Assembly: GCF_003591175.1 (NCBI RefSeq)
Contig: NZ_QYYG01000013.1
Span: forward strand, 1 to 64,000
Source: Serratia inhibens
Lineage (GTDB): Bacteria; Pseudomonadota; Gammaproteobacteria; Enterobacterales; Enterobacteriaceae
Direction: 5' to 3'
DNA: 64,000 bases
Position numbers and translations under genes: made by a program. Each line of letters starts with the position of its first letter. Position 1 is the first letter of the stretch. Under the pieces are notes generated by a model. The model was given only the letters and a program-made list of their open reading frames with translations, was not told the origin of the DNA and did no database searches. This document shows positions 19,747 to 21,416 of the stretch, in pieces.

Positions 19747-19999
19747 TATCTTCGTTAACGTATTAACTCGTCACAGCGTCTCGGTATGACTCCAGATTGA
19801 GCCAGAACGGCGAGCAGCCCTCTATGGCGGCATAAGCTAACAAATCTGATTTTTTTAGCGAGTTTCAGACAGATATTGATCCAGGTCACACTGGCAGCAA
19901 AGGCAACCAACCTCGTAAATTAAACTGTACGTATAACGCTTAAGGGGTAAAAATGGCGAACTCGCCGTAATTTGGCTTTAGCATTTAATCGATAATTAT

Positions 20000-20015
20000 T
20001 TTCATCATATTGAAA
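20000..20015 (+). promoter_or_regulatory. Candidate operator palindrome upstream of the fpr-linked regulator
   Basis: TTTCA-N6-TGAAA is a perfect inverted repeat in AT-rich sequence 27 bases before the ATG at 20043. Its position suits autoregulation, but the binding protein is unknown. The rest of 19747-20042 contains a half CRP-like TCACA near 19886 and no evident gene. Confidence 0.35.
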
Positions 20016-20042
20016 TAAAATAACACCATAGGGATTTGGTTC

Positions 20043-20666
20043 ATGAAAACACCAGAGCTGATTTTGTTGCAGTTGAAAACCTTGGGGCCGCATTCCGCCA
20101 AAATGCTGGCTGAGCGTCTGGACATCACCCCAATGGGTATCCGTCAGCATCTGCAATCCCTGGAAAGACGTGAGCTGGTTTGCTACGAAGAGGCGCGTAC
20201 CAAAGTGGGCCGCCCCACGCGTTACTGGTCGCTGACCCATCAGGGCCACGCCGAATTCGCCGATTGCCACGATACGCTTGCCACGGCATTGCTGGAGTCC
20301 GCCCATCCGCTGTTTGGCGACGAAGGGGTGGAACAGCTGATTAGCGAGCGTGAAGAAAAGCTTTATCAGCGCTATGCCGAAGAGCTGTCGGAAGAAACCA
20401 GCCATCAGGGCAGACTCGCCCGGTTGGTGCGCCTGCGGCAGCACGATGGTTACATGGCCGAGCTGTTCGAACATCCGCAGGGCATGCTGCTGGTGGAAAA
20501 CCACTGCCCGATCGGCGTGGCGGCCACCGCCTGCAGCAGCCTGTGCAATTCGGAACTGCGGCTGTTTCACCGCCTGTTTGGCCACGGCTACCGGATAGAA
20601 CGCGCGGCGCATGCCATTTCCGGCTCACGACATTGCGCTTATTTGATTCGACCATTGGAGCTTTAG
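20043..20666 (+). CDS. HTH regulator with a C-terminal cysteine cluster (SufR-like), linked to fpr
   Basis: This 207-residue protein has an N-terminal winged helix (about 1-65, TPMGIRQHLQSLERRELV). Its C-terminal domain contains C155, C164, C168 and C198, in the context ENHCPIGVAATACSSLC and SGSRHCAYLI. The CPI-to-C spacing (C155 to C168, twelve residues between) and the late Cys resemble SufR-family repressors, which bind an Fe-S cluster. It ends three bases before fpr, so the two are co-transcribed. I infer a redox- or Fe-S-sensing role in fpr control; whether a cluster is bound cannot be seen. Confidence 0.7.
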   Translation: MKTPELILLQLKTLGPHSAKMLAERLDITPMGIRQHLQSLERRELVCYEEARTKVGRPTRYWSLTHQGHAEFADCHDTLATALLESAHPLFGDEGVEQLISEREEKLYQRYAEELSEETSHQGRLARLVRLRQHDGYMAELFEHPQGMLLVENHCPIGVAATACSSLCNSELRLFHRLFGHGYRIERAAHAISGSRHCAYLIRPLEL

Positions 20667-20669
20667 AGT

Positions 20670-21416
20670 ATGGCTGACTGGGTTAATGGCAAGGTTACGC
20701 AGGTAGAGCAATGGACCGACGGGCTGTTCAGCATTACCGTCGATGCCCCTATTGATACCTTTACCGCCGGGCAATTTGCCAAACTGGCGCTGGAAGTTGA
20801 CGGTGAGCGCGTGCAGCGTGCCTATTCCTACGTCAACGCACCCAGCGATCCGAATCTGGAGTTTTACCTGGTTACCGTGCCGGAAGGCAAACTGAGCCCG
20901 CGGCTCAACCAGCTGCGGCCGGGATCGGAAGTGATGGTGACCAAAGAGGCCGCCGGTTTTTTCGTGCTGGAAGAAGTGCCGGAATGCGATACCTTGTGGA
21001 TGTTGGCGACCGGTACCGCCATCGGCCCTTACCTGTCCATCCTGCAGGAAGGCAAGGACCTGGAGCGCTTCAAAAATTTGGTGCTGGTGCATGCAGCCCG
21101 CTTTGCGCGCGATCTCAGCTACCTGCCGTTGATGCAGCAATTGCAGCAGCGCTATAACGGTAAACTGCGCATTCAGACCGTCGTCAGCCGTGAAGACGTC
21201 GCGGGTTCACTGACCGGACGCGTGCCTGCTCTTATCGAAGACGGCCGGCTGGAAGCCGCGGTGGGGCTGCCCCTTGATGCCGAAACCTGCCACGTCATGT
21301 TGTGCGGTAACCCGCAGATGGTGCGAGATACCCAGCAGACGTTGAAGGATCAGCGGCAAATGCGCAAACACCTGCGCCGCAAGCCGGGCCATATGACCAG
21401 CGAGCATTACTGGTAA
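20670..21416 (+). CDS. fpr: Ferredoxin/flavodoxin-NADP+ reductase Fpr
   Basis: A 248-residue FAD enzyme moving electrons between NADPH and ferredoxin or flavodoxin. The FAD-binding RAYS motif is at 50-53, the NADP domain begins near residue 105 (LATGTAIGPYLSIL), and the C-terminus HYW matches E. coli Fpr. In E. coli it belongs to the SoxRS regulon. Here it forms a tight two-gene unit with the upstream cysteine-rich regulator. Confidence 0.97.
   Translation: MADWVNGKVTQVEQWTDGLFSITVDAPIDTFTAGQFAKLALEVDGERVQRAYSYVNAPSDPNLEFYLVTVPEGKLSPRLNQLRPGSEVMVTKEAAGFFVLEEVPECDTLWMLATGTAIGPYLSILQEGKDLERFKNLVLVHAARFARDLSYLPLMQQLQQRYNGKLRIQTVVSREDVAGSLTGRVPALIEDGRLEAAVGLPLDAETCHVMLCGNPQMVRDTQQTLKDQRQMRKHLRRKPGHMTSEHYW

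Follow-up and report, generated by a model that had tools for sequence, protein, structure and literature searches.

We identified a two-gene unit in which a SufR-like winged-helix regulator, here called REG, directly precedes fpr, the gene for ferredoxin/flavodoxin-NADP+ reductase, in the window (the whole 64,000-nucleotide stretch of Serratia inhibens DNA that we analysed). We put the chances at about even that REG is a SufR-family Fe-S one-component regulator that is co-transcribed with fpr and autoregulates its own operon. This reading draws on homology to SufR, the close spacing to fpr, invariant cysteines, a single clade of fpr-linked proteins, and inverted repeats with a six-base spacer (N6 dyads) ahead of the genes of relatives. 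A preliminary description had proposed a dedicated Fe-S- or redox-sensing switch on fpr. The SufR relationship, the invariant cysteines and the conserved two-gene unit speak for that proposal, and on sequence grounds its Fe-S component appears to be the best supported; the word "dedicated" and the assignment of a palindrome as operator are weaker.

The arrangement itself was as first described, with a winged-helix protein encoded 3 bp ahead of fpr and a TTTCA-N6-TGAAA palindrome just upstream of it (Table 1). The divergent emrD gene lies upstream of REG, across a gap of 296 bp, and the convergent yiiR follows fpr, with yiiQ and tpiA beyond it (named by position and from an E. coli record). REG therefore has emrD, fpr and yiiR as its neighbours, and suf is not beside it. 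The nearest named record is from S. plymuthica (L087), with 97% identity over REG. The statement that E. coli fpr has no such partner also held, since fpr directly follows glpX in the one E. coli record used; at the DNA level, a blastn search with REG found no match in a collection of 5,426 E. coli genomes.

Table 1. Features of the REG-fpr locus (window coordinates)
Feature	Coordinates	Strand	Basis
REG, SufR-like winged-helix regulator, 207 aa	20043..20666	+	ORF, profile match, homologue alignment
fpr, ferredoxin/flavodoxin-NADP+ reductase, 248 aa	20670..21416	+	NF008178, 504 bits (cut-off 390)
TTTCA-N6-TGAAA dyad TTTCATCATATTGAAA, candidate REG operator	20000..20015		Motif search; N6 geometry as in relatives
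TAAAAT, candidate -10	20016..20021	+	Same in all 26 Serratia promoters; 17-bp spacing gives no good -35
GCATTTAATCGATAAT box	19981..19996		Near-identical before fpr in REG-less L120 and L121; variant in L124
Fur-like 19-mer, 15/19	19991..20009	-	Best in 64-kb window; consensus match only
Conserved promoter block	19975..20032		51/58 columns identical in 26 Serratia-genus sequences

REG is present in 26 of 30 genomes of the genus Serratia, the four without it measuring 1.5-3.6 Mb, and fpr starts 3 bp after REG in all 26. Among 246 genomes sampled from the family, REG was found at ≥60% identity in 12 genomes from 8 genera (truncated in one of them, G346), and fpr adjoins it in 11 of these 12. In a sample of 295 genomes from the order, coordinates place REG beside fpr in three, namely the window's own genome and two from another family (L003 and L007). 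Of 54 loci with both genes, 53 have a gap of 2-10 bp between them and one has a gap of 104 bp. Phylogenetic analysis (42 rows) placed the fpr-linked REG proteins in a single clade with support of 100/96, spanning Serratia, Hafnia, other genera and one further family; a second SufR-like paralogue in the window's genome (L002, G000:C1:1509310) falls in a separate clade. We conclude that the conservation of REG and fpr as a unit, together with the invariant set of cysteines, goes beyond what chance would give. We found no description of this unit in the open-licence literature as judged by titles and abstracts, including for COG2345 with fpr.

The association has exceptions. One genome in the fpr-linked clade, G456 (locus L061), encodes REG with all four C-terminal cysteines and has no fpr between REG and yiiR, nor did we detect fpr anywhere in its assembly (130 contigs, given as 99% complete) at an E value of 1e-20. 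In two other loci, L105 (Serratia sp. AKBS12) and L133 (G346), REG has suffered an internal loss of most of its cysteine domain and fpr is kept; the truncated protein of L105 is 92 aa long, and that locus retains the dyad as well as fpr. That the switch is dedicated to fpr is called into question by G456, where REG occurs and fpr was not detected, and by the loss of a fifth family cysteine in the enterobacterial proteins of the fpr clade; further arguments against it are the promoter elements that REG-less relatives also have and the REG genes lacking the cysteine domain in L105 and G346.

REG consists of a helix-turn-helix (HTH) region (residues about 1-73) and a cysteine domain (about 119-207). 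It matches the SufR model (TIGR02702, SufR_cyano) along its full length, residues 4-202 aligning to model positions 3-208 of 208, which supports the SufR-like C-terminal context proposed earlier; the score of 111.9 bits is below the curated equivalog cut-off of 178.8. All 45 homologues scanned match the same model. Pfam returned HTH matches only, all below cut-off, and none for the cysteine domain. Compared with the PDB, the whole predicted structure matches chiefly winged-helix domains, over residues 1-73, and the predicted fold of the cysteine domain alone (pLDDT 82.5) has no match at an E value of 0.001 or better. With a significant SufR_cyano match and a C-X12-C...C core, REG falls within the broad SufR-like superfamily. 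It resembles SufR of cyanobacteria, Rv1460 of M. tuberculosis and SufR of S. avermitilis in its full-length homology, N-terminal HTH, C-terminal cysteine domain and C-X12-C...C motif, and its relatives share the N6 dyad geometry. It differs in scoring below the equivalog cut-off, in lying beside fpr instead of suf, in having its last cysteine 30 rather than 28 residues on (compared with Rv1460) and an extra cysteine, C164, and in the absence of CAAC-N6-GTTG, the best candidate within 160 bp of L001 having three mismatches. We rejected an assignment as SufR in the strict sense, on cut-off, neighbours and operator alike; by the curated test applied to its sequence, REG is SufR-like and not SufR.

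We scanned upstream regions of relatives for dyads with spacers of 0-12 bases, and the arms that emerged were six bases apart, the same spacing as in the SufR operator CAAC-N6-GTTG given in PMC8593673 and another review. TAAAG-N6-CTTTA precedes non-enterobacterial REG genes exactly in 14 of 29 cases and with at most one mismatch in 25 of 29 (0.1% and 1.1% in shuffles), and CAAG-N6-CTTG precedes 22 of 23 paralogue genes (L002 and 22 orthologous loci; 0.3% in shuffles). With control spacers of 3-5 and 7-9, exact dyads were absent and near matches numbered one at most. These N6 dyads support autoregulation, which looks like a habit of the REG family as far as upstream sequences can tell. The paralogue L002 matches the same model and has the same four cysteines as REG; it differs in having five cysteines, a different recognition helix, the candidate operator CAAG-N6-CTTG and no fpr within the fetched locus.

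An exact search of 18 genomes for TAAAGN6CTTTAYAAA yielded 12 matches in 9 genomes, ten of them ahead of REG genes (one site counted on both strands); G010 contributes its REG-fpr unit to these ten. The two remaining matches, one inside an open reading frame and the other in G189, about 0.1 kb ahead of iscR-iscS, could both be due to chance, since a reversed control gave five matches. The site near iscR-iscS (L170, 1501-1520; G189:C5:2813), where the identity of IscR was confirmed, shares bases with a longer AT-rich inverted repeat, and G189 is the only genome in which we saw it; a link to Fe-S assembly is possible, as is chance. A relative on plasmid C of the cyanobacterium Trichormus variabilis (L177) has the five-cysteine motif and two exact TAAAG-N6-CTTTA dyads upstream; the same N6-dyad check found none at the plasmid relatives L178, L179 and L180. 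We also considered unlinked fpr genes as targets and rejected them on shuffle p values: among 20 such genes from other families, the best upstream match to TAAAG-N6-CTTTA gave p = 0.03 for one and at least 0.2 for 19. All 12 enterobacterial REG promoters scanned have at least two mismatches to the TAAAG dyad, despite nearly identical recognition helices.

In Serratia, the palindrome overlaps the Fur-like match and lies in a promoter block of which part is also present in REG-less relatives; ten-base blocks upstream of the promoter block average 0.74-0.99. The exact TTTCA-N6-TGAAA sequence occurs once in the 64 kb, and one in the emrD-REG gap arose in 4 of 5,000 mononucleotide shuffles of that gap. 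At up to one mismatch there are five sites in the 64 kb, compared with 2.2 ± 1.7 in shuffled sequence, and 10 of at least 100 shuffles reach five. Among 26 REG promoters of the genus Serratia, 25 have the palindrome, and it has one mismatch in L060 and L043, but it was not found within 160 bp of REG in other REG-fpr genera (3-4 mismatches in L062, L063, L065, L066, L067, L061, L003 and L007). As a clade-wide operator it is unsupported beyond Serratia and close relatives; we regard it as a candidate REG operator in Serratia. In G456, an exact copy lies 420 bp upstream of REG (12 of 5,000 shuffles of the 735-bp gap); we did not count it as support. A Serratia regulon could not be derived from TTTCATCANNTTGAAA, which has 89 sites at up to two mismatches in the window's own genome and 12 in a reversed control, a result that we judged unusable. 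One site is exact, that of Table 1, and nine have one mismatch, with L110 and L111 lying between open frames; none of the one-mismatch sites is beside a gene that we recognised as Fe-S related when reading the frames by eye. Separately, TCGTAAATTAAACTGTACG at 19914-19932 is conserved in the genus Serratia, has a similar counterpart in the REG-less L121, and is perhaps an emrD promoter element.

An alternative, to which we give a rather low probability, is that the promoter is run by global regulators, namely a repressor of the Fur type, an activator of the AraC type, or both; fpr would merely share the REG transcript, the palindrome would be promoter sequence, and REG would act elsewhere or only weakly here. 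Both a ACATTTAATCGATAAT box and TAAAAT persist ahead of fpr in REG-less relatives; for the GCATTTAATCGATAAT box, the comparison covered nine enterobacterial REG-less loci, in which two were near-identical and one varied. This alternative would also accommodate G456, and the presence of the adjacent pair in only three of the 295 order-sample genomes. Scored as 19-mers against the consensus in PMC11353095, seven Serratia-type promoters have Fur-like matches of 14-16/19 (shuffle p 0-0.007); however, five other enterobacterial REG promoters score 10-13/19, with p of 0.15 or more. Moreover, the candidate N6 operator of relatives precedes REG itself, and its exact copies elsewhere are rare (two more in 18 genomes).

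The window's genome encodes eight SoxS-like AraC proteins, the best with 57% identity, and the GCATTTAATCGATAAT box may correspond to the SoxS site at fpr in Salmonella, GCTCTAACTAACAAA (PMC10268841); at roughly the same place in E. coli, the opposite strand carries GCTCAATCGATCAAA. Against this, the box scores 4.4 with the SoxS matrix, below the 6.8 that marks the 5th percentile of known sites, and the best site in 150 bp scores 5.7 (shuffle p 0.5), so that the REG-fpr promoter has no mar/sox box at the score of known sites. Nor did we find SoxR in the window's genome at an E value of 1e-10; the same query recovered SoxR from 97 of the 246 family-sample genomes at 1e-25. SoxR occurs in 1 of 12 REG genomes (G316; the truncated-REG genome G346 is counted) and in 96 of 234 others, a difference (Fisher p 0.031, uncorrected for kinship and reduced genomes) that is suggestive only of SoxR being rarer where REG is present. 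REG may therefore stand in for SoxRS at fpr. The Serratia locus is like that of E. coli and Salmonella (PMC10268841) in its enzyme gene and in a box at a comparable promoter position, but differs in the poor SoxS score, the lack of a detected SoxR, and the regulator gene that precedes fpr. Control of fprB by IscR in Pseudomonas aeruginosa (PMC4521836) likewise has an Fe-S-cluster regulator acting on a ferredoxin-NADP reductase gene; IscR is an Rrf2-family activator on the fprB promoter, whereas REG is SufR-like and in one unit with fpr.

REG has cysteines at positions 47, 75, 155, 164, 168 and 198. The last four had been correctly placed before, with the N-terminal C47 and C75 left unnamed. 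We aligned 105 loci, leaving out the truncated L105; the 104 full-length proteins represent 89 distinct sequences, and C155, C164, C168 and C198 are present in all 89. Position 158 is glycine in 37 of 37 enterobacterial fpr-clade proteins and cysteine in the other 52 homologues, including both fpr-linked proteins from the other family; on the simplest reading of the alignment, Cys158 would have been lost after the linkage to fpr arose. C155, C168 and C198 fit the SufR ligand pattern, with C155-X12-C168 and C198 30 residues further on, two more than in Rv1460; the paralogue L002 (C156/C169/C197) has exactly the Rv1460 spacing. In the predicted structure C155 is in a loop and C198 in a strand, and a helix carries C164 and C168 in its first turns. 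PMC8593673 gives the SufR cysteines as C-X12-C-X13-C-X14-C, and another review gives the ligands as C164/C171/C206, which is incompatible with C-X12-C, so that reviews differ on numbering. According to PMC6034842, each of C203, C216 and C244 of Rv1460 is needed in M. tuberculosis, serine changes behaving like empty vector, and all cysteine variants still repress a reporter in M. smegmatis. That REG senses redox or metals through thiols (disulfide, Zn) and not a cluster, a change that Cys158 loss would mark, is improbable: the four rather than five cysteines of all 37 enterobacterial fpr-clade proteins and the invariance of C164, no ligand in the SufR pattern, would fit it, but the SufR-type triad is intact in 89 of 89 and position 158 lies outside that pattern.

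Under the SufR-family autoregulator reading, REG would be a dimer in which C155, C168 and C198 of each subunit ligate a [4Fe-4S] cluster; by analogy with SufR, the holo dimer would repress REG-fpr by binding to an N6 dyad in the promoter of REG. In Serratia the dyad bound would most likely be the palindrome at 20000-20015, which abuts the -10 element. Once the cluster is lost, damaged or reduced (by superoxide, NO or iron shortage), repression would be relieved and Fpr would rise, supplying flavodoxin or ferredoxin with electrons. The promoter is probably also subject to other regulators. We counted against this reading the sub-cut-off score, the mismatched TAAAG dyad in enterobacteria, the 3-4 mismatches to the Serratia dyad in other genera, G456 without fpr, G346 and L105 without the cysteine domain, and the Rv1460 variants that still repress. 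A more specific scenario has a single recruitment of a SufR-type [4Fe-4S] autorepressor to fpr, after which it became a local Fe-S damage sensor replacing SoxRS in SoxR-less enterobacteria, with Cys158 changed to Gly and a rewired N6 operator; we offer it tentatively, as holding perhaps one time in three.

A SufR-like relative on a plasmid of Sulfitobacter faviae (L179; SufR_cyano 109.7 bits) sits between annotated fdxA, superoxide dismutase and flavin reductase genes and a truncated hemoglobin gene, neighbours with which an oxidative or nitrosative signal would fit. Other plasmid relatives of REG have efflux or unrelated genes as neighbours.

If the SufR-family reading is correct, it would carry SufR-type regulation beyond the cyanobacterial and actinobacterial suf loci, to an enterobacterial electron-supply gene, and would provide a testable alternative to SoxRS at fpr. 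It would also supply candidate motifs for the operators of two SufR-like groups; the literature we found does not name their targets. Judged from their genomes, Serratia and some relatives may tune ferredoxin/flavodoxin reductase by the state of an Fe-S cluster.
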